From Leifsonia sp. ZF2019 (lineage in GTDB: Bacteria; Actinomycetota; Actinomycetes; Actinomycetales; Microbacteriaceae), in the NCBI RefSeq assembly GCF_019924635.1, contig NZ_CP065037.1, forward strand, positions 4,030,001-4,094,000: a stretch of 64,000 nucleotides of DNA, written 5' to 3'. Within the stretch, counting starts at the first letter, position 1, and every line of letters starts with the position of its first letter. Position numbers and translations under genes: made by a program. A model generated the notes under the pieces. It was not told the origin of the DNA and ran no database searches. It worked only from the letters and a program-made list of their open reading frames with translations. Below, piece after piece: positions 29,498 through 39,305 of the stretch.

Positions 29498-29626
29498 GGC
29501 AACCTCCGTGATTCTCGAAACGAATCTGACATCTTACCGCGTCATGCTCCGAGAATGTCGGGAGGCGCGCCGGGGGTCCGACGCGCCTCCGTCTCCGCCG
29601 CCGCTGCCCGCGCTGCGGCGGCGGAA

Positions 29627-30043
29627 TCAGGCGCCCAGCCGCACGGTGATCGTGTCCCGGCTCGGCTCGTGGTTCGCATCGCCGCCGTAGACGACATCGA
29701 GCTGTACGTCGCCCGACCAGGTCATCGGCACCGCGAGCTCGAACCGGTACGCACCGCCGTCGAGCGTCGCCGTCCCCACCGTGTCGGTGCCGCGCACGAG
29801 CGTCACCGTCCCCGTCGGGGTGGTGCCGTACTGCGCCTCGATCCGGCCGGTGATGACGGCCGTGCGCTGATCGATGACCTTCATCGAGAGGTTCAGGTAG
29901 GCGCTGTCGTTGTACCCGGCCGTCGTCTGTGCCGGACCGAACCCGCCAGCGAGCAGCATCCCGCACACGACAGCCGCCGTCATCAGCAGACCGACGGCCG
30001 ACCGTCCCAGCACCCCGAGTCGGGTGAGCGTCGTCGCGATCAT
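29627..30043 (-). CDS. Exported Ig-like (Big_3-type) protein with SipW-like N-terminus
   Basis: This 138-residue protein is the last gene of the SipW locus. A long signal segment (residues 1-42) ends in TTAGYNDSAYLNLS, which parallels the YTDNAYLNL and YIDNAFLNL starts of its locus partners. The rest is one Ig-like bacterial domain (PTGTVTLVRGTDTVGTATLDGGAYRFELAV, DVQLDVVYGGDANHEPSRDTITVRL). Its ATG shares a base with the preceding stop (TGATG), so it is translationally coupled. It is probably an extracellular structural or adhesive module processed by the locus signal peptidase. Confidence 0.82.
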   Translation of the reverse strand: MIATTLTRLGVLGRSAVGLLMTAAVVCGMLLAGGFGPAQTTAGYNDSAYLNLSMKVIDQRTAVITGRIEAQYGTTPTGTVTLVRGTDTVGTATLDGGAYRFELAVPMTWSGDVQLDVVYGGDANHEPSRDTITVRLGA

Positions 30044-31737
30044 CAGCGCACCTCCACATTCGTGTCCACCACGGTCGTCGGGGCCTTGGCGACCACGTAG
30101 TCGGTCGCCGCTGTTCCCGTGTCACGGCCGCCCGGAGCGACGAACGACACCTCCGCCGGATACGTTCCGGCAGGATGCTCCGCCGGCCCGAAGTCGAAGA
30201 TCGCCGTTCCGGACGCGTCCGTCCCGGCCTCGTGCTGCTCCCCGTTCAGCTTGAGTTGGACGGTCACCGGCACGCCCAGCCCCGGCACGCCCGCCGCGAT
30301 GCGCCCCTCCTGCCCGTACACGATCGACGGGGCGTCGACGGTCATCGGCCACTCGGTGACGTTCGGGATGATCGGGGAGAAGAGGTAGGCCTGTCCGGTG
30401 CGTCCCCAGATGGTCTGCCCCACGCTGGCGACGATCGCGCGCCCTCCGTCGACTCGAAGACCTCCGCCATTGAGGGATCCGCCGAACCAGTCGCCCGGCC
30501 GCGCGCCCGTGCCTCGCAGAACCTGCACCGGCTCAGGTTGCTGTCGCATCAGGTCACCCGGAACGCTCGTCGTCGCCAGGTCCCCGATGTCGTACACCTG
30601 GATCTCGCCGACCTCGCCGTCGAGGCGGGTGACGCTCGACATGAGCAGTGCGTTCCTCTCGACGGCCATGTTGAACCCGCCGGCCCGCTCATGCGGCGGC
30701 GGCACGATCTTGGGTCCGACCTGATGGAGGTCGGAGAGCGAGAAGCGGTAGATCGCACCCACTGTCGTCGTACCCGCGTCGACCGAGGAGTTGTTCCACC
30801 CGCCGAGCAGGTCGCTGGGGTCTTCGGCCGTGTAGGTGGTCTCTCCTGGCGAGGAGACGAAGAGGTCCGTGTCATTGGCGGCGAGGGCGTAGCCGAAGCC
30901 GCCGGTCACGCCGCCACTGGAGAACAAGCCGGTCCGGTGCTCGACTGCGTCGACACCCCACAGCGGATGGTCGATGAACATCGCCGGGGTGGACAGATCG
31001 TCGAGGTCCCACACGTAGAGACCGCCTGTCTGCACCAGCACGTTGGCCGCGTTTCGCGTCTTCTTCTGGTGAGCGGACGAGATGAGCCACCGATCGGTCA
31101 ACAAGACCTCGTCACCGAGAAGCCCGTTGATGTAGAGTCCCGTAACCCCCGCACGTTGTACGGCGCCGGTGGCGAGGTCGGCGACATAGACCCCACCCGT
31201 GGAGTAGTACGGTCCGATGTCGTCGCTCTTGGCTTCGTATGCTCCGATGGCGAGCCTGTCGCCTCGCAGTGAGAGCGACTCTCCGAAGGTGACGTTCGTG
31301 GTGCCGTCGCCGGGGGTGAACACCCGGCCCTCGCGCCAGTGCCAGTCACCGTCGTCGGTCGAGAGGAGGTACTCGAACACTTGATCGCTCTTGTAGGCCC
31401 CCACGTAGAGGAGACCGCGTGACTCGTCGAGCGCGAGTGAGGCCCCGAAGTAGCGCGCCCCCGGTGGAGTCGACAGGGTCTGTGAGTCGAGTACCGTACC
31501 GGCCTCGTCGACGCGCATCACCTCGACGGCGGCTTCCCCAGCGGTCGAGCTGATCGCACGGGTGACCGCGACGACGTCGTGGGAGATCGCCACGCGCGCC
31601 GCGCTCTGACCATCCCAGTTGTAGGACGCTACTTCCTGGTAGACGTCCGCCGCGTTGGACGCGGCGGCAGGCAGGACGGCGAGCACCACTGCGATGAGCA
31701 GTGCGGGGAGGGATCTGAGAGCCGTGGGGCGTCGCAT
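30043..31737 (-). CDS. Secreted beta-propeller-like protein with C-terminal Ig-like domain
   Basis: This 564-residue protein has an ordinary Sec signal peptide (MRRPTALRSLPALLIAVV, cleavage after ASNAA). Residues about 30-450 contain repeated blades (VYVGAYKSDQVFEYL-like, GESLSLRGDRLAIGAYE, GFGYALAANDTDLFVSSPG) similar to FG-GAP/integrin-alpha-type propellers. An Ig-like domain follows (about 460-564: GVPVTVQLKLNGEQHEAGTDASGTAIFDFG). Unlike its partners it lacks the SipW-type N-terminus. It is coupled on both sides: start TGATG with the RCC1 gene and stop TGATG with the Ig-like gene. The role is inferred as surface display or binding. Confidence 0.78.
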   Translation of the reverse strand: MRRPTALRSLPALLIAVVLAVLPAAASNAADVYQEVASYNWDGQSAARVAISHDVVAVTRAISSTAGEAAVEVMRVDEAGTVLDSQTLSTPPGARYFGASLALDESRGLLYVGAYKSDQVFEYLLSTDDGDWHWREGRVFTPGDGTTNVTFGESLSLRGDRLAIGAYEAKSDDIGPYYSTGGVYVADLATGAVQRAGVTGLYINGLLGDEVLLTDRWLISSAHQKKTRNAANVLVQTGGLYVWDLDDLSTPAMFIDHPLWGVDAVEHRTGLFSSGGVTGGFGYALAANDTDLFVSSPGETTYTAEDPSDLLGGWNNSSVDAGTTTVGAIYRFSLSDLHQVGPKIVPPPHERAGGFNMAVERNALLMSSVTRLDGEVGEIQVYDIGDLATTSVPGDLMRQQPEPVQVLRGTGARPGDWFGGSLNGGGLRVDGGRAIVASVGQTIWGRTGQAYLFSPIIPNVTEWPMTVDAPSIVYGQEGRIAAGVPGLGVPVTVQLKLNGEQHEAGTDASGTAIFDFGPAEHPAGTYPAEVSFVAPGGRDTGTAATDYVVAKAPTTVVDTNVEVR

Positions 31738-33188
31738 CACTTCACCTTCTTGGGGGTTGTCTGGGCGTTCGACGACCACGAGCTGCGGCCGTCGCCGAGC
31801 AGGTTGATGGTGTTCATGTTGGTCCGGCCCCAAGCCCAGACACCGCCATTCACATCCACCGCGACGCCGCCGAAGTATTCGGCGGCCACAGCCGCGATCT
31901 TCACGCTGAAATCGACCTTGGTCGGCGAGAGCGTGTCCTGCGCCGAGGTCCCATTGCTGGTCGTTCCGATGCCGGTGTTGCCGAAGCGGTTGCCGCCCCA
32001 CGCCCACACCGCGCCGTTGGCGTCGAGCGCGTAGAAGTGCGACTCGCCCGCCGAGATGTTCGTGAAAGGGGCCTGCCCGGCCGCGCGTCCGACCCGGAGC
32101 GGTTTGCAGACCGCCGAGAGCGCGGTGCTCTGCTCGGACTCGTTCGACCACTTGCAGAGTTGCGCAGTGGTCGGATTCAACCCGAGCGTGGTGTTCGACT
32201 GGGTCCCGCTCTTCGAGCCCCAGGACCAGACGTAGCCGTCGCGATCCAGCGCATAGGCGGTGCGGCCCCCCATCGCCACCTTGACGATGTTGGAGAGGTA
32301 GGGCGATCGCGTCGGCGTGACGACCTCGGAGGTCGAGTAGGTGTCCGAGAGGGCGAGCCCTGCCATGTGGTTGCTGCCCCAGGCGTACACGGATCCGTCG
32401 CGAGCGACGGCCATGTTCTTGTCCCATCCGACGGACACGTCCACGAAGTCGATGCCGGTCGTGATCTGCTTGGGCGCATTCCGGTTGACGCTGGCCGAAT
32501 CGCCCAGCACATGGAACCTCGTCTGTGCCCCGCCGTTCCACGCGCCCCAGCTCCAGAGGTTGCCGTTGGTGTCGATGGCGTAGCTCGTGCTGGTCTGGTT
32601 CTGTCCGGTGCCGAGGTTGAGGTAGCCTCCGGCCGCGACCTTGCGGTACTTCGTCGCGGTCGAGACGATCTTCACCGGGGTCGGCTGGTCGGTGTAGGAG
32701 CCGAGCGCACCCGTCTGCCCGTAGCCCCACCCCCAGATGTCGCCGTTCTGGTCGATGGCGAGGTTGTGCTTCGGGCCGAGGGCGATCTCCGTGAACGTGG
32801 TCCCCGCGGGTACGCGGACCTGCTGCAGCGAGTCCGAGTACGTGCCGACTCCGGAGGCCTGGCCGCCGGCCCAACCGTAGAGCGTTCCGCCGGCGCGCGC
32901 CAGCGAGTGGACGTTCGAGAAGTTCTGGGTCGGCACACCGTTGCCGGAGCCGGGAGGGGTCGTCGGCGTCTGCGTCGGCGTCGAGGTCGGTGTCTGGGTC
33001 GGGGTGGAGGTCGGCGACGATGTGGACGCGCCCATCGTGACCAGGTAGTTGAACTGGCCGCGATCGGTGAAGTCGGCGCCCGTTGCTCCGATAGTAATCA
33101 GAGTCGCGACAGCCGCAACGCCGCCGATACTGAGAAGCACGGGCCTGAGATGTCGACGTCGACGGCGGACGGAACGGGGAACACTCAT
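31737..33188 (-). CDS. Exported RCC1-repeat propeller protein
   Basis: This 483-residue protein has a basic start (MSVPRSVRRRRRHLRP), a membrane-export segment and ADFTDRGQFNYLV, a variant SipW-type mature N-terminus. A Thr/Pro linker (residues about 52-78, TPTQTPT repeats) follows. Seven or so RCC1 blades follow from about residue 85, each with an IWGWGYG- or VYAWGSN-type Gly-Trp-Gly core. RCC1 propellers bind proteins or nucleotides; in secreted bacterial proteins the partner is usually unknown. It overlaps the signal peptidase stop as ATGA. Several Cys residues lie in one blade. Confidence 0.85.
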   Translation of the reverse strand: MSVPRSVRRRRRHLRPVLLSIGGVAAVATLITIGATGADFTDRGQFNYLVTMGASTSSPTSTPTQTPTSTPTQTPTTPPGSGNGVPTQNFSNVHSLARAGGTLYGWAGGQASGVGTYSDSLQQVRVPAGTTFTEIALGPKHNLAIDQNGDIWGWGYGQTGALGSYTDQPTPVKIVSTATKYRKVAAGGYLNLGTGQNQTSTSYAIDTNGNLWSWGAWNGGAQTRFHVLGDSASVNRNAPKQITTGIDFVDVSVGWDKNMAVARDGSVYAWGSNHMAGLALSDTYSTSEVVTPTRSPYLSNIVKVAMGGRTAYALDRDGYVWSWGSKSGTQSNTTLGLNPTTAQLCKWSNESEQSTALSAVCKPLRVGRAAGQAPFTNISAGESHFYALDANGAVWAWGGNRFGNTGIGTTSNGTSAQDTLSPTKVDFSVKIAAVAAEYFGGVAVDVNGGVWAWGRTNMNTINLLGDGRSSWSSNAQTTPKKVK

Positions 33189-33817
33189 CGGGCAGACTCC
33201 TTGCGCAGGGCTCGTCGACCGGAATTCGGTGGCACTCGTGAGGAGCCGCTCTCGACGTCATCGACGAGTGTTTCCTCCGCCGCAGTGACCTCGACTACCT
33301 GATCGAACTCCTGGGGGCGTCGCTCGAATCTGGCCGGGTCGAGCACGAGCAGCGCGGCGATCACGCAGACGAGGACGACACCGACGAGGATCCCTTGGCG
33401 TTGCAGGAAATCGGCGACATAGCCCAGGTAGGGAATGGTGAAGAACACGACGGCGGCGTTCGTGACGACGTAAGGTTCAGGATCGGTCACGGCGTTGGCG
33501 TCACCCTGGAGCGTGAGCGCCGTGCGCCCTGCCGACTTCTCCATGGACACGATGCGGTGGGTGACGAGCCCCTCGTCGTTCGGGCGCTCGACCATCACGA
33601 CGTCCCCAACCCCGAGATCAATGGCCGCCCGGTCCAAGGAGAAGGTCATCGCACCGATGGGGATGGTCGGTTCCATCGAGCCGGAGATCACGATGGAGGG
33701 CTTGACACCCACGTACAACCCGATGGCGAAGATGAGAACGCACGCGGCACCCACAATCGCGCCGACCGTGAGCAGGACATTGCGGGCGACCGCGTAAATG
33801 CGCCAGCCGAGGCTCAT
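33185..33817 (-). CDS. sipW: SipW-type (ER-like, S26B) signal peptidase I
   Basis: This 210-residue membrane protease has an N-terminal helix (residues 13-38), then SGSMEPT with catalytic Ser47 and VTHRIV with His87. His replaces the Lys of ordinary bacterial signal peptidase I, as in SipW and eukaryotic/archaeal enzymes. The motif LQGDANAVTDPEPY follows, and a second helix (about 148-160) and basic tail complete it. In Bacillus SipW processes TasA and TapA, the matrix-fibre proteins. Here it sits among proteins with TasA-like N-termini, so it probably cleaves them. It overlaps both neighbouring genes as ATGA. Confidence 0.92.
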   Translation of the reverse strand: MSLGWRIYAVARNVLLTVGAIVGAACVLIFAIGLYVGVKPSIVISGSMEPTIPIGAMTFSLDRAAIDLGVGDVVMVERPNDEGLVTHRIVSMEKSAGRTALTLQGDANAVTDPEPYVVTNAAVVFFTIPYLGYVADFLQRQGILVGVVLVCVIAALLVLDPARFERRPQEFDQVVEVTAAEETLVDDVESGSSRVPPNSGRRALRKESAR

Positions 33818-34398
33818 CCTCGCCGAGCTTCCGAACGGCGCCGGGACACCGCGAACACGACCACCCCGCCTGCGACCAGCACGACGGCCACCACGATCGC
33901 GGCGGTTGCGATCGTTCCACCGGTGCGCGCGAGGTCACCGGCGCCCGAATCGCTCGGGCTCTCGGCGACGGCCGTGAAGACGACGGTGAGGTCACCGCTC
34001 TGCCGGGCGTACTCGTTGCCCGCCTCGTAGGACTGGCCGAAGTCGAGAGTGACGCTGGCGGTCGCTCCGGAAGCGATTGAGCCGAGATCGATCGACTGCT
34101 GCTCCACCCGGACATCGCCGCTCGACACCGTCACCGGGTGCGGGCCCGTCCAGATACGGCCGACCCGGTCGACGACCGTGACGCTCACACGAGCGGACGA
34201 ATCACTGACGTTGCGCGTCGAGTAGGTCTGCGACCAGGTCTCGCCCGGAGCCGGCGACTGCACGGTGACGGTGGCGCTCTCCACCGAAAGCAGAGGGTCG
34301 GCGGCATGGGCCGCGGTCGGCACGGCGAGAGCGACGAGACCGGCGCCGACCCCGAGCAGCAGGCGGGAGAAGAAGCGCATGGCGACGTTCCTGTTCAT
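33814..34398 (-). CDS. Exported protein with LARTG-type wall/membrane anchor
   Basis: This 194-residue protein has a signal peptide (MRFFSRLLLGVGAGLVALAVPTAAHA). A strand-rich domain of about 110 residues follows (TVTVQSPAPGETWSQTYSTRNVSDSSARVSVTVV). The C-terminus is DLARTGG, a hydrophobic helix and SRRRSEARRG. LAxTG is the class E sortase motif of actinobacteria, so it could anchor the locus products at the envelope. The ATG at 34396-34398 overlaps the preceding stop; an internal MRFF six codons later would give a tighter signal peptide. No sortase gene lies in the window. Confidence 0.83.
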   Translation of the reverse strand: MNRNVAMRFFSRLLLGVGAGLVALAVPTAAHAADPLLSVESATVTVQSPAPGETWSQTYSTRNVSDSSARVSVTVVDRVGRIWTGPHPVTVSSGDVRVEQQSIDLGSIASGATASVTLDFGQSYEAGNEYARQSGDLTVVFTAVAESPSDSGAGDLARTGGTIATAAIVVAVVLVAGGVVVFAVSRRRSEARRG

Positions 34399-35054
34399 TC
34401 GAAGGCCGATCGAGCGGTGGGGTTGGTACTCGTTCCGGTGAACTCCACCTGCACGGCGGTTCGCAGACCGGCCACGTCCTCGGGGGCATCGACCGGCAGA
34501 GTGATGTCGATCTCGAAGGTGCGGACGCCGCCGGAGCTCACGGGCTCGGGAAGACGGCGGAGAAGCGCGGCGGCATCGGCCCCGCTTGCTTGGTCCATCA
34601 CAACGGCATCACCCTCCCGAACGGTAAAGCGCAGCTCCTCGAAGAGCCTCAGGGCGTTCTGCCCTTCGGGTGTGTCCGCAGCGGGAGGCGTGATCGCCAT
34701 GGTGAGCTCGGCAGCGAGCCGCGGGCTCGCGTTGCGCACCGCCATGCGGAAGGTGTGCGCGACACCGCGCTCTAGAAGCCGGTCGCCGTCGAGGTCGAGC
34801 GTGAAGGAGGCGTTCTCGGCCTCGCTCGGCCAGGCGGCGAAGTCAGCGCCGATCTCGGCGGCAGTGGTCTGGAGGGCGATGTAGTTGGTGCGCCCGTCGA
34901 GATGGGTTACGACGGGCGCCGAGCCGGTGAGAACGGCCGCCGTGCAGACGAAGCTGACACCGATCAGAGCACTCGCGGTCAGCAGTGCGCGCTTGCGTCC
35001 GCGAGGACGTTCCGTGCGCACGGTGGAAGAGGGAGGGTTCACGCTCGGCACCAT
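34395..35054 (-). CDS. Exported protein of the SipW locus
   Basis: This 219-residue protein has a basic N-terminus (RTERPRGRKRALLTASALIG), one export segment (residues 23-45) and HLDGRTNYIALQTTAAE, a diverged version of the SipW-type mature start. The body is a strand-rich domain (NASFTLDLDGDRLLERGVAHTFRMAVRNASPRLAAELTMAI, then VRTFEIDITLPVDAPEDVAGL). This resembles camelysin/TasA-like beta-sandwich proteins in layout. It is the first gene of the tightly overlapping block, preceded by a strong stem-loop. The function is inferred to be structural, possibly a minor subunit. Confidence 0.75.
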   Translation of the reverse strand: MVPSVNPPSSTVRTERPRGRKRALLTASALIGVSFVCTAAVLTGSAPVVTHLDGRTNYIALQTTAAEIGADFAAWPSEAENASFTLDLDGDRLLERGVAHTFRMAVRNASPRLAAELTMAITPPAADTPEGQNALRLFEELRFTVREGDAVVMDQASGADAAALLRRLPEPVSSGGVRTFEIDITLPVDAPEDVAGLRTAVQVEFTGTSTNPTARSAFE

Positions 35055-35083
35055 TTCTCAGTCGACGGGCTGGGAGGAGGAAG

Positions 35084-35130
35084 CGACACCGGTGGCGAGG
35101 CGATCGGGGATCATCCCGCCACCGGTGTCG
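35084..35130. other. Intercistronic stem-loop downstream of the putative major subunit gene
   Basis: CGACACCGGTGGCG (35084-35097) and CGCCACCGGTGTCG (35117-35130) are perfect 14-bp arms around a 19-nt loop. It begins 8 nt after the stop at 35138 on the minus strand. There is no T tract, only CTTCCTCCTCC beyond the stem. It may be a partial terminator or an mRNA-stabilising structure that raises the level of the upstream gene relative to the rest of the operon. Confidence 0.75.
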
Positions 35131-35137
35131 GGGTCGA

Positions 35138-35782
35138 TCAGTTGGCCGCGTGGACGACGGCCTGGATCTTCGACGTCAGACCCGCGAGCGCGTTGTTCGC
35201 AGCGTCGGAGCCCTGGTCGGGCAGGTTGACACCGATGGTGAGGACGCCGCCCTCCCCCGGCGCGATCTCGCCCAGGCTCGCGTTGGCGACTGCGGAGTAC
35301 GCGACGTTTGTCAGACCGGGCAGCGGTGCGCCGTCCAGGGAGACGGTGAAACGCAGCGCGTCGCGCAGCGCGGTGTCGCCGCCGCGGTCCGCGAGCGAGA
35401 CGTCGAGGTTTCCAGTGGAGCTGTCCTCGTCGTTGATGAACGGGATGTTGACAGACTTCCAGTCGGTGTGTCCGGGGATGAGGGTGTCCGAACCGCGGAT
35501 GGCGAACGAGACGCCCGCGGGGTCATCTGCTTCCTGCCAGGCGCCAGCGGCCTTCGCACCCGCGAAGGTCTCGAACTTGGGCGTGTAGTCCGCATTGGTC
35601 TCGACGACCTGGATGTTGAGCGGGCTGCTCGTTCCGAAGCTGCCGTTGCCGTCGCCCGCACCACCGAGGTTCAGGAAGGCGTTGTCGATGTAACCGGCAG
35701 CCGTGGTGAGGGCCGCGACGCCCAGGAGGGCACCGCCCGCGATGATCGCCCGGCGGCGACCGTTGTGCTTGGTCTTCTGCAC
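35138..35782 (-). CDS. TasA/camelysin-like SipW-dependent exported protein (putative major subunit)
   Basis: This 214-residue protein has an N-terminus of KTKHNGRRRAIIAGGALLGVAAL followed by AAGYIDNAFLNLGG, the actinobacterial alternate (SipW-type) signal form. The mature domain is strand-rich and Gly/Asp/Asn-rich, with no cysteine (GNLDVSLADRGGDTALRDALRFTVSLDG, GEGGVLTIGVNLPDQGSDAANN). The GTG start (35780-35782) follows AAAGGA by about 7 nt, better than longer options in the frame. A strong hairpin follows the stop. By analogy with TasA it may form fibres, but this is inference from signal type and locus. Confidence 0.82.
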   Translation of the reverse strand: MQKTKHNGRRRAIIAGGALLGVAALTTAAGYIDNAFLNLGGAGDGNGSFGTSSPLNIQVVETNADYTPKFETFAGAKAAGAWQEADDPAGVSFAIRGSDTLIPGHTDWKSVNIPFINDEDSSTGNLDVSLADRGGDTALRDALRFTVSLDGAPLPGLTNVAYSAVANASLGEIAPGEGGVLTIGVNLPDQGSDAANNALAGLTSKIQAVVHAAN

Positions 35783-35864
35783 AATGTTCCTTTCGTGAGT
35801 TCGGTGCGTCCCGGGGTGGGAGCACCCGTACCGCTGCTTGTCGCGGACGTGTGTGGGTGGCTCG

Positions 35865-36638
35865 CTAGGGCGAGACAACGGATCGGCCGTGGAGCTTGAT
35901 CTGCAGGCTCACGGGTTTGCCGACGACCGCCGCGTTGAGCGCGGCGCCCCGGTCGGAGAGGTAGAAGACGAACTCGAGACGACCCCCGACCACGGGGACC
36001 CCCATGACCGCGGGACCGGGCGCAAGTGGCGGACGGAAGGCGTCTGCACCCCGGATCGGCACGACATCGCCGATCGATCGGACGGAGGCCTCGAGGCGTC
36101 GATCGGACGCGTTGTCGGATGCGGGGAAGGCGGAGTACACCGAGTACTTGAGCGCCGAGGCCGCCGTCGCATCCGATCCGGGTGCGGCATCGACGCGCAC
36201 CTGCAGCGTGGATGCGATACCGGGACTACGGTTGGCGACATGGATCTCTATGCGGCACGCGCTTGATCCCGAGGCATCGGACTGCGGACGCAGAGGAAGG
36301 GGGCACGCTCCGGCGGGAAGGGTGAGTTCCTGCCCTCTGTCGTCGTCCGCCTGGATCCACGACGTCACGCCGAGCTCCGTGCCGACGCTCCAGTCGCCTG
36401 TCTGCCGCCACCGGAACACGAGATCGTAGACGCCCGTCCCGATCGGCTTGCCTCCGCCGGCTCCCAGATTCAGGTACGCGTTGTCCGTGTACGCCGCGAC
36501 CGTGCCCGTGACGGCGGGAACGACGATCGCGGCGGTCGCGGCCACGGCCAGGGCGCCGCAGACGGAGAGCGCACCGAGCATACGACGGCGGGTCGCGCGG
36601 CGCCGCAGGTCACGACGTGTGCGGCTGAGGGACTCCAT
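35865..36638 (-). CDS. TasA-like SipW-dependent exported protein (first gene of the locus)
   Basis: This 257-residue protein starts with a very basic n-region (MESLSRTRRDLRRRATRRRM), then a hydrophobic core to about residue 46. TVAAYTDNAYLNLG follows, a textbook SipW-type cleavage region. The mature domain has two cysteines in PAGACPLPLRPQSDASGSSACRIEI, probably a disulfide, and strand-rich segments (RLEFVFYLSDRGAALNAAVVGKPVSLQIKLHG). The ATG at 36636-36638 is chosen; a longer frame to 36722 has no signal-like start. It is the promoter-proximal gene of the SipW locus, 82 nt before the next. Confidence 0.8.
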   Translation of the reverse strand: MESLSRTRRDLRRRATRRRMLGALSVCGALAVAATAAIVVPAVTGTVAAYTDNAYLNLGAGGGKPIGTGVYDLVFRWRQTGDWSVGTELGVTSWIQADDDRGQELTLPAGACPLPLRPQSDASGSSACRIEIHVANRSPGIASTLQVRVDAAPGSDATAASALKYSVYSAFPASDNASDRRLEASVRSIGDVVPIRGADAFRPPLAPGPAVMGVPVVGGRLEFVFYLSDRGAALNAAVVGKPVSLQIKLHGRSVVSP

Positions 36639-36684
36639 GCGGGCTCCGGGGCGATCGATGCGGTTCGGGATGACCCCGGCTGTA

Positions 36685-36701
36685 CTGCATGTGAGATGCA
36701 G
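36685..36701. repeat. Small hairpin upstream of the SipW locus
   Basis: CTGCAT-GTGAG-ATGCAG lies 47 nt before the first gene start, in the spacer 36639-36836. This spacer also holds an AT-rich patch (around TATATATGG, 36809-36817). It could be part of the locus promoter or leader. No clear -35/-10 pair was identified. Confidence 0.35.
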
Positions 36702-36714
36702 AATCGTCGAGGAC

Positions 36715-36816
36715 ATGACCAACCAAGCACCGGCCGAACGGCAACGCAGGAGAACTCACGCCATTACAGCGGCCCAACTGCGGCATCTCCGGAATGCCTA
36801 TATATGGGCTGCGTAG
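36715..36816 (+). CDS. Possible 33-residue peptide
   Basis: ATG at 36715 opens a 33-codon frame in the spacer upstream of the SipW locus. The peptide is basic (Arg/Gln/His-rich, QRRRTHAITAAQLRHLR) and ends in NAYIWAA. GAGG lies immediately before the ATG, closer than ideal. There is no further support, and it may be chance. Confidence 0.2.
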   Translation: MTNQAPAERQRRRTHAITAAQLRHLRNAYIWAA

Positions 36817-36836
36817 TCAAATGAGGCTTAAAAGCA

Positions 36837-37598
36837 CTATCTCGCGTCGAGGTGGGCAACCAGGAACGGAAGCGTTCGACGCAGTGCCGCGTCGTCCCCA
36901 CCGGACGCGAGCACCTCGCCGAGATAGTCCCCGTGGTTCCCGGGGACGACGAGCAGCCGCGCGTCGGCCAGCCGGGACGCGAGCTCCACCCCCTCCTGCA
37001 CCCGCACCACGTCGCGATCGGCCACGACCACCAGGGTCGTCGCGGTGACGGCGTCGAGCAGCTCGTCCGGGAAATCCTGGAACCCGAGCATGAGGTCGCG
37101 ATCGAGGTCGAACATCCTCCGTGCGTGATCCGGATCTCCGCTCACAGCCAGGTCCGCCCGACGATACGGAGCGGGGAGGTCGTCGAACGTTCCGGCGGCC
37201 AGCCCCTCCCAGAAGCCCTCCACCATCCCGGAGCGGCGGAACGGCGCCGACGCCACGATCAGCCGCCGCACGGCTGCCGGATACCGCCCGGCGAGCTGCA
37301 GCGCGACCTGGCCTCCGTTGCTGAACCCGAGCACGTCCACCGGTCCGCAGTGCAGCGTCGCGAGCAACGCGGCCACGTCGTCGGCCGAACGCTCGAACGA
37401 GGCAGGGCCGTCGCCGGTCGCCGTGCGGCCGTGGCCCTGCAGCTCGACGGCGAGCACCGAGCGGGTCGGCGCCAGTCGCGGCAGCAGCAGCCCCCAGTTC
37501 GACGCGATCGTCGAGCCCCCGCCGTGGAGAAGGAGCAGTGGCGGGTTCGGCGAGTCCGGGTCGCCGTGCCATTCGTGATGCAGCGCGTTCGGGATCAC
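36837..37598 (-). CDS. Alpha/beta hydrolase
   Basis: This 253-residue cytoplasmic hydrolase has the oxyanion region LLLLHGGGST, the nucleophile elbow GFSNGGQVAL with Ser near residue 93, an acid in VVVADRDVV, and the catalytic His in VPGNHGDYLG. These are all in the correct order for an esterase or lipase-like enzyme of the alpha/beta fold. The substrate is unknown. The GTG start has TAGCCT six nt upstream. It is divergent from the Stealth gene. Confidence 0.9.
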   Translation of the reverse strand: MIPNALHHEWHGDPDSPNPPLLLLHGGGSTIASNWGLLLPRLAPTRSVLAVELQGHGRTATGDGPASFERSADDVAALLATLHCGPVDVLGFSNGGQVALQLAGRYPAAVRRLIVASAPFRRSGMVEGFWEGLAAGTFDDLPAPYRRADLAVSGDPDHARRMFDLDRDLMLGFQDFPDELLDAVTATTLVVVADRDVVRVQEGVELASRLADARLLVVPGNHGDYLGEVLASGGDDAALRRTLPFLVAHLDAR

Positions 37599-37604
37599 GC
37601 GGGA

Positions 37605-37610
37605 AGGCTA
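37605..37610 (-). promoter_or_regulatory. -10 element TAGCCT (leaderless)
   Basis: On the minus strand TAGCCT lies 6 nt before the GTG at 37598. Confidence 0.5.
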
Positions 37611-37673
37611 CACCCCTGGCGCGGAACGCAACCCCCTGCCGCTGTCGCCGCCGCAGCCTAGAGTGGGGAGCGT

Positions 37674-39305
37674 ATGACAGAGCATCCGCCCGCCTCCCTC
37701 TCCGCCCAGCCCGAGCCCGTCGTCGTCACCGGCGGCTCCGACCCGTCCCTCACCCGCTTCGAGCGCGGGGATGTCGTGCGCCGCAAGGGCCTCTTCACGC
37801 TCGTCTCCGGGCCGTTCACACCGCGCGAGTCGATGATCGAGGACCTGCTGGCGGTGCACGACGCCCTCGAGGCCGCCGGTTTCGACTTCCTGCTGGTGCG
37901 CGGCGACGACGGTCGCCTCATCGTCGCCGTCGACCGGCGCCGGCGCAAGGAGCTGGAGGCCGTGCTCGCCGACGCCTTCGCGAGCGAGCCGTTCTACGCG
38001 CGCCCGATCGACGCCGAGGGCCGTCCGGGAGACGAGGCGTTGCTCATCGCAGACGGGCGCCTCTCCCGGCGCAAGGCCGACATCCTGCGCCTCTACCGCC
38101 CGCGCCTCGAACCGGTCGGCCGGCTGCGCTACGGCTCCGACACCGCCTTCCAGCTGGAGCTCTGGCGCTTCGGCGACGACGAGATCGAAGCCCCTTGCCC
38201 CAACGCCCTCATGCGCACGCGCCTGCCCCGCAGCGAGGCCGTGGAGGCCGAAGTGGAGCTCTACGGCCGCCGCTGGCGCACCCTGCAGCACATGTTCGAC
38301 CCGCTCGCGAGCGACGTGGCGTTCGACATCGACATCGTCTTCTCGTGGGTGGACGGATCGAGCGCCGAGTACCAACGCCAGCGTGCCGCGCAGATGGCCG
38401 CCTATGTCGTCGGCGAGGGCGACGACAACGAGGCACGGTACCGGCAGATCGACGAGCTGAAGTACGCCCTGCGGAGCGTCCACATGTTCGCACCCTGGGT
38501 GCGCAACATCTACATCGCCACCGACTCGCCCGTGCCCGCATGGCTCGACGCGGAGCATCCGCGCATCCACATCATGCGGAGCGAGGACTTCTTCGCCGAC
38601 ACCTCCACCCTCCCCACGCACAACTCGCACGCGGTGGAGGCCCAGCTGCACCACATCCCGGGCATCTCGCAGCACTTCCTGTACTCGAACGACGACATGT
38701 TCTTCGGCCGGCCGATCTCCCCCGACGTGTTCTTCTCGCCCGGTGGCATCACGAAGTTCGTCGAGGCGGGCACGCGCATCGGGCTCGGCGAGTCGGACCC
38801 GGCGCGGAGCGGCTTCGAGAACGCCGCCCGGGTGAACCGCCGCCTGCTCTGGGAGCGCTTCGGCGCCGTCACGACGCGGCACCTGGAACACTGCGCGGCC
38901 CCGCTGCGGGTCGACGTGCTGCAGGAGATGGAGCGGGAGTTCGCCGAGGAGTTCCGGCGCACCGCGGCCAGCCCGTTCCGCTCGGCGACCGACATCTCGG
39001 TCACGAACTCTCTGTATCACTACTACGCGCTGATGTCGGGCCGCGCGGTCACGCAGACGCAGGCGCGCGTGCTCTACATCGAGACGACGCTGCGGCAGGC
39101 GCCCGAGATGATGAAACGGCTGCTGAAACGCCGCGACCAGGACATGTTCTGCCTGAACGACGGGTCGAAGCCCGAGATCCCGGCGGAGGTGCGCACCCGC
39201 GTCGTGACCGACTTCCTCGAGCGCTACTTCCCGTTCGCGGCGCCGTGGGAGGTGACGGCGCCGCAGGAGATCACGGCGCCGCAGGAGATCACACCGGGAG
39301 CGTGA
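37674..39305 (+). CDS. Stealth family sugar-phosphate transferase
   Basis: This 543-residue enzyme belongs to the Stealth family, which transfers hexose-1-phosphate to capsule or wall polysaccharides. Residues 1-200 form a variable N-terminal domain. CR1 is [11 protein letters not shown] at 218-228. CR2 (about 255-352) includes [27 protein letters not shown] and [15 protein letters not shown]3 and CR4 continue to about 520 ([20 protein letters not shown]). The C-terminus carries a tandem TAPQEI repeat. TAGAGT lies 9 nt before the ATG. A role in surface phosphopolysaccharide is expected. Its last 17 nt overlap the convergent phosphodiesterase gene. Confidence 0.9.
39255..39290 (+). repeat. In-frame 18-bp tandem repeat
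   Basis: Two identical copies of ACGGCGCCGCAGGAGATC (39255-39272 and 39273-39290) encode TAPQEI twice in the Stealth protein tail. Such a perfect pair can expand or contract by slippage. Confidence 0.9.

Follow-up and report, generated by a model that had tools for sequence, protein, structure and literature searches.

The closest described relatives of the locus considered here are fibre operons built around the signal peptidase SipW, for which we drew on parts of the papers cited. In B. subtilis the tapA-sipW-tasA operon places SipW beside the exported subunits; the main one, TasA, is a beta-sandwich carrying a post-signal segment and polymerises via its N-terminal donor strand, and TapA is a complete immunoglobulin (Ig) fold donating its N-terminus (PMC9674648; PMC10151520). 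In the B. cereus SipW/TasA/CalY/CapP system the TasA-like subunits are two or more in number, and assembly involves a partner associated with the cell wall (PMC13082335). In C. perfringens a SipW operon, sipW-bsaABCRSD, makes filamentous polymers, and in the parts of that paper used no LPXTG-like motif is predicted for BsaA and no propeller is named (PMC7395162). Here we describe eight genes (g1 to g8) around a SipW-type peptidase in Leifsonia sp. ZF2019, contained in a 64,000-nt stretch of contig NZ_CP065037.1 (positions 4,030,001 to 4,094,000, the whole of which we call the window), and we consider it likely that they encode a SipW-dependent TasA-type donor-strand surface fibre that ends in a propeller and is anchored to the wall at its base.

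The locus is like that of B. subtilis in its SipW placed beside exported subunits and in a main subunit that combines a beta-sandwich of TasA type with a post-signal segment, and it departs from it in having three TasA-like subunits (g1, g2, g3), an RCC1 propeller (g6), a predicted wall-anchored protein with a probable TasA-like core (g4) and no match to PF12389, the TasA/camelysin family. TapA finds its counterpart in g8, and in layout in g6, the likeness of g8 being one of layout only (donor segment followed by an Ig domain). As in B. cereus, there are several TasA-like subunits and a candidate wall-associated partner; unlike that sortase-independent system, with CapP compared by its description, the partner g4 combines a sorting signal with a TasA-like core. 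A likeness also exists to generic actinobacterial SipW loci with TIGR04088 cargo, such as locus L038 of the same genome, in which SipW stands with SipW-type exported proteins; there, two cargo proteins pass TIGR04088 and the stretch holds no propeller match, whereas the window proteins are absent from the TIGR04088 matches. Among the matches listed in openly licensed PMC papers, judged by title and beginning of abstract, we found no study of a SipW/TasA/propeller operon in actinobacteria.

The original prediction had proposed several TasA-like exported proteins and, precisely, a TasA-like fold for the product of the gene at 35138 (g2), and such a fold was found in the predicted model of g2. 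The model is a beta-sandwich; among solved structures Foldseek matched it best with an archaeal bundling pilin and with the TasA fibre, which places the predicted core in the structural group of donor-strand fibre subunits. The top match was 7ueg, the bundling pilus of Pyrobaculum calidifontis (expect value, E, 9.5e-5), an archaeon unlike the window host; archaeal bundling pili are assembled by donor strands. Residues 1-52 of the model had low confidence and no strand. We compared the other products with g2 by family profiles in HHalign, calling the g2-type family A, the g3-type family B, the anchored proteins (g4) L, the propellers (g6) P and SipW (g5) S. The g1 product aligned with the A profile over residues 46-255 (Prob 98.1), and the B profile, with 14 homologues of g3 aligned, matched A nearly over its full length (Prob 99.8). 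For g4, residues 42-149 aligned with B at Prob 96.6, and the comparison with A gave 84.1 (unrelated controls 0.6 and 0.1); the TasA-like assignment of g4 rests on this profile comparison and not on its model, because its fold search gave middling matches only. The g8 product aligned with A over residues 37-58 only (Prob 14.9). Hence the TasA-like character stood for g1, g2 and g3; in g4 the core seems to be distantly TasA-like, without the signal and post-signal donor stretch, and what g6 and g8 share with the TasA-like proteins by sequence is that stretch and not the whole protein.

These assignments were made without family membership. PF12389 had no match in the own genome at E ≤ 10, in a search in which the B. 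subtilis control matched, and none in the 15 A proteins at E ≤ 1; the proteins are therefore filed as TasA-like by fold and layout, and not as members of the family. When the A and B profiles were searched by sequence against the PDB there was no match at E ≤ 1, and no convincing Pfam or NCBIfam family was found for g1, g2 or g3.

To describe the post-signal segment we built a hidden Markov model (HMM) from 79 N-termini of other loci, to which neither the window nor its two closest relatives contributed, and we ran it on the 336 open reading frames (ORFs) of ≥60 aa of the window. The four best were g2 (4.2e-15), g1 (1.6e-7), g8 (4e-7) and, weakly, g6 (0.04), the fifth having E=1. The segment follows the signal directly, with the consensus Y/F-x-D-x-A-x-L-N-L. 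The predicted motif shared after the export helix was thus clear in g1, g2 and g8 and weak in g6, and it failed in g3, which the model did not recognise (E 5.5, rank 7 of 336); a free segment after a SipW-type signal is present accordingly, and its use as a strand would follow the TasA example. The more cautious claim that HLDGRTNYIAL of g3 possibly belongs to the set was borne out by homology and not by motif, because the B profile aligns as TasA-like over nearly its full length. In the mapped loci, at E ≤ 0.01, the HMM recognised 42/42 A, 8/11 C, 21/25 D and 24/35 propeller ORFs, counts that include training members, and, with no training members, 20/36 B, 3/3 g1, 3/3 g8, 0/3 g7 and 0/43 SipW ORFs; none of the 33 anchored L ORFs, equally outside the training set, passed even E ≤ 0.1. 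At this last threshold one of the three g7 ORFs was recognised, the frame of L024 that spans also part of the neighbouring propeller gene. With the SipW-cognate signal model TIGR04088 (cut-off 19 bits) none of the five matches of the genome fell in the window operon, and 6 of 15 A proteins gave weak matches (best E 0.007).

On the basis of these comparisons we distinguish three classes of part. In g1, g2 and, probably, g3 a donor segment precedes a core; in g8 and, more weakly, in g6 it precedes a domain of another kind (Ig and propeller, respectively); and g4 has a core and a wall anchor with no donor segment. In the proposed mechanism the TasA-like subunits, g2 as the main one plus g1 and g3, would be exported and cleaved by SipW (g5); the cut would free the N-terminal beta-strand, and donor-strand pairing, with the strand inserted in the groove of the following subunit, would drive polymerisation into a fibre. 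Since g6 and g8 carry the segment and no such core, their place would be at the start of the fibre or at its end, where they could lend binding and thus adhesion; the role of fibre starter or end has been proposed for TapA in Bacillus, and we suggest the same for both. The g4 protein, which has a groove-type core and no donor segment, would cap the opposite end, anchored to the wall by the sortase of the genome.

We give slightly less than an even chance to a broader proposal, namely an actinobacterial pilus class that unites two Gram-positive principles, with a non-covalent donor-strand chain running from a donor-only propeller adhesin at the outer end and terminating on a sortase-fixed, acceptor-only TasA-like protein; here the strand or groove carried by each part would set the order of the ends. 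If true, TasA-type fibres, described in Bacillus and Clostridium in the sources drawn on above, would extend to a recurring operon of Micrococcales and Propionibacteriales, and in this form they would be attached to the cell by a wall anchor and would carry a binding head of their own. Each of the candidate parts, namely starter, main subunit and base, has a gene of its own that can be deleted singly, which bears on how a fibre starts, ends and is held to the cell.

The domain assignments of the remaining parts agree with most of what had been predicted for them. The g5 product scored 74.5 bits against TIGR02228 (cut-off 51.85), as a SipW-type (ER/archaeal-type) signal peptidase I, with Ser47 and His87 identical in 12/12 aligned SipWs, and it remained below the Bacillus SipW equivalog NF046067 (64 bits, cut-off 190). 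The LARTG-anchored protein was recovered in g4, above the cut-off of the LAVTG-type anchor model NF058582 (33.1 bits, cut-off 27); with its sorting motif, membrane helix and basic tail, and with one PF04203 sortase match in the genome (C1:16627, outside the window), g4 is a predicted sortase-anchored wall protein. Actinobacterial class E sortases use LAxTG-type motifs. In 30 of the 33 ORFs of the L family a leniently defined sorting motif lay near the C-terminus; the same pattern flagged the B-family ORFs of L023 and L024, which we took to be chance. The RCC1 beta-propeller of g6 was found with PF25390 (E 2.6e-51), and also with PF13540 and PF00415, and its best solved RCC1-type relative had E 2.4e-25; no other ORF of its genome had PF13540 matches at E ≤ 0.001. 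RCC1 families accounted for 32 of the 34 propeller proteins scanned and a DUF5122 propeller for 2 (both delta-60-type genes are in L027), so another propeller type can fill the propeller place. The Ig-like protein is g8 (Big_3_5, E 3.6e-10). For g7, predicted as a second propeller with an Ig-like domain, a single FG-GAP_2 match was found (E 4.7e-8) and no Ig-like domain by Pfam at E ≤ 1; it had no similarity to TasA (Prob 0.2 against the A profile), its search of the PDB gave nothing at E ≤ 0.1, and among the mapped loci its homologues occurred only in L023 and L024, the two closest relatives. At the boundary between g7 and g8 the strands of one Ig domain looked possibly split across both sides.

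That A (g2) is probably the main fibre subunit is suggested by two signs of high dosage. Directly after g2 there is a stem-loop (minimum free energy over 70 nt -38.7, z -6.2, reached by 0 of 200 shuffles). Across the loci, stem-loops with z ≤ -2.5 followed 20/34 A genes and 7/135 B, C, L, P and D genes (Mann-Whitney p 1.4e-6), this tally counting genes and not loci, so that L026 gives two A genes and L074 and L099 fall out; six of the seven non-A cases follow D, and SipW was followed by one in 6/34. The stem sequences of A vary between the loci compared. It is possible that the element after g2 acts as an attenuator or mRNA stabiliser, separating the dosage of g2 from that of g3-g8. By the effective number of codons, A exceeded B in codon bias in 26/30 loci (p 1e-5), and it likewise exceeded L (24/27), P (24/29) and SipW (23/30); the differences from C (5/9) and D (15/20) were not significant.

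The eight genes of the window are a local variant of a commoner operon, with the order A-B-C-L-P-D-SipW across the mapped loci. We tabulated 36 loci, two of which (L087 and L096) are cut, hence 34; absent from the table are L089, which a contig end cuts, and L037, L038, L073 and L075-L080, whose A is weak or broken in frame. A, L, P and S occurred together in 30 of the 34 uncut loci, window included, the exceptions in the maps made being L026 (without P), L027 (without S), and L070 and L074 (without L). The full order A-B-C-L-P-D-S was found in 19/34, counting any TasA-like type at the C place and including L098, which has an extra L match, and L099, where A and B form one frame. In reading these counts it should be borne in mind that some loci of the table, L023-L036 and the window, also supplied part of the sequences for the SipW, C, D and propeller HMMs, and that the loci are phylogenetically non-independent (L023 and L024, as well as L028-L030, are close). 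Eighteen loci from named genomes were not used in those four HMMs, two of them probably having provided the A-profile proteins P0001 and P0010; 15 are uncut, and all 15 had A, L, P and S. Named carriers are metagenome-assembled genomes (MAGs) of Propionibacteriaceae, Leucobacter, Microbacterium thalli, a Microbacteriaceae MAG, Arthrobacter, Oerskovia enterophila (Cellulomonadaceae), Sanguibacter inulinus (Sanguibacteraceae) and Propionicicella superfundia (Propionibacteriales). The window type, g1-A-B-L-S-P-FG-GAP-Ig, was present also in L023 (G021) and L024 (G015), with the same flanking genes. The original prediction had named random variation of the genes around the peptidase as the result that would speak against it; we found instead that the gene set recurs, mostly in the same order, across genera and families.

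As a single query, g2 matched in 14 of 119 genomes, own included. With its profile, and with the own genome counted, matches were obtained in at least 19 among 398 genomes from the family, and at least 11 of these reached 150 bits; of 396 genomes drawn from the phylum the profile matched in the own one only; the absences in both screens are weak, because only the best candidates, at most 7 per genome, were scored. In two other screens the best 7997 and 7996 candidates by shared words were scored. RCC1 repeats occurred in 22 of 42 relatives (13/17 with the operon), and we discarded their co-occurrence with the operon at genome level as a link, as it is not specific: they occur also in 9/25 without it.

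Among the alternatives, we judged unlikely that the locus makes a TasA-type matrix fibre only, with g2, g1 and g3 forming loose fibres and the propeller, Ig and anchored proteins being separate and merely sharing SipW and the operon. The polymers of C. perfringens BsaA, mainly extracellular and needing no sortase (PMC7395162), and the B. cereus system, called sortase-independent in the parts used (PMC13082335), offer precedents for it, and it would suit the lack of TasA similarity in g7 and the RCC1 repeats of relatives without the operon. It leaves unexplained, however, that the anchored g4 is related to the TasA-like core and yet has no donor segment, that most propellers keep the SipW-type N-terminus (as counted above, with an HMM partly trained on them), and that the parts are co-linear across the loci.

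Still less probable in our estimation is that there is no fibre at all, and that SipW serves as private export peptidase for proteins that act separately in surface binding or substrate capture, or for a camelysin-like protease group. The name of PF12389, Peptidase_M73, reflects a protease role proposed in relatives, and the formation of fibres is something that we infer for every member; against this, PF12389 is unmatched, fibre subunits rank first in the fold search of g2, and the stem-loop and codon bias of gene A suit a structural protein. A classic sortase-assembled pilus with covalently linked subunits could be imagined from the LARTG-anchored protein in the operon and the sortase in the genome, and we consider it very improbable: a C-terminal sorting motif was flagged in g4 and in none of the other seven products, where several subunits should carry one, and the operon has no sortase match, the only one of the genome lying elsewhere. 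The donor-strand fibre with propeller end and anchored base is the reading that we prefer.

Table 1. Positions of the genes of the SipW locus and of associated elements in the window
Feature	Position	Strand	Description
g1	35865-36638	-	257 aa; TasA-like exported subunit, YTDNAYLNL segment and beta-sandwich-type core (by profile)
g2	35138-35782	-	214 aa; A-type TasA-like subunit, YIDNAFLNL; probable major fibre subunit
Stem-loop	35084-35130 (about)	-	Directly after g2; 16-bp outer stem
g3	34395-35054	-	219 aa; B-type TasA-like subunit, HLDGRTNYIAL
g4	33814-34398	-	194 aa; LARTG protein, predicted wall-anchored, putative TasA-like core, no donor segment; proposed base/acceptor-only subunit
g5	33185-33817	-	210 aa; SipW-type signal peptidase, Ser47/His87
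g6	31737-33188	-	483 aa; SipW-type signal, donor-like FTDRGQFNYL, Thr/Pro linker, RCC1 beta-propeller; proposed fibre initiator/end adhesin
g7	30043-31737	-	564 aa; secreted FG-GAP protein, ordinary-looking signal peptide
g8	29627-30043	-	138 aa; donor segment YNDSAYLNL and Big_3_5 Ig domain, TapA-like layout
Accessory island	29541-36842		7.3-kb block; BLASTN of window flanks against same-genus genome

All eight co-oriented ORFs predicted for the locus were found when the minus strand at 29627-36638 was read and translated, and g5 fits the peptidase with Ser47 and His87 described among them (Table 1). The chain of six genes joined by 1- or 4-nt overlaps was equally recovered, the overlaps from g3 to g8 being, in order, 4, 4, 4, 1 and 1 nt; the spacers are 82 nt (g1-g2) and 83 nt (g2-g3). 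For g2 we adopted a GTG start with a ribosome-binding site, a longer TTG start seeming less likely. Strong GC-rich hairpins lie immediately past g8 (window 29500-29626) and are perhaps the end signal of the operon.

The 7.3-kb block forms an accessory island, and at the corresponding site of another genome of the genus it is missing. In BLASTN of the window flanks against L128, 26635-29540 (87.6%) and 36843-39253 (85.1%) adjoin within about 55 nt; in the same-genus genome G002 both flanking genes are neighbours, with matched ends 97 bp apart, and since the flanks meet there, the block was gained or lost cleanly. In plasmid records nothing resembling it was found at megablast sensitivity.

The own genome has other SipW loci. 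In L038 (C1:3360000-3379900), which differs from the window locus, both TIGR04088 cargo proteins are small and the SipW ORF bears an LAATG motif; an LADTG protein of 1561 aa and an ATPase regulator of LuxR type are encoded there as well. A third SipW-like match, with 31% identity, is in L039 (C2:15000-34900), on a second contig of 102 kb.

In 13 of the 36 loci (L086, L087, L031, L035, L036, L071, L072, L074, L091, L097, L099, L100 and L103), six of which were training members of the HMM used, a LuxR-type regulator ORF lies near the operon and often directly adjoins it, with a length of 579-919 aa (187 aa in L099). The seven checked by Pfam all had GerE, several with an AAA/STAND-type ATPase part. 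Such an ORF may be a dedicated regulator of the operon; none adjoins it in the window.

Three loci have unusual arrangements. In Arthrobacter sp. Hiyo8 (L099:9992-11320) the A and B types lie in one 442-aa frame, by natural fusion or sequence error. L026 (5500-16500) has a duplicated A-B pair and a SipW domain inside a 780-aa ORF, with no RCC1 protein found alongside, and G051, a 2.9-Mb genome with 69 RCC1-repeat matches, carries three copies of the operon (L032-L034). In the window, the island is adjoined by a gene for a Stealth-type phosphotransferase with CR1-CR4 domains (37674-39305, plus strand).

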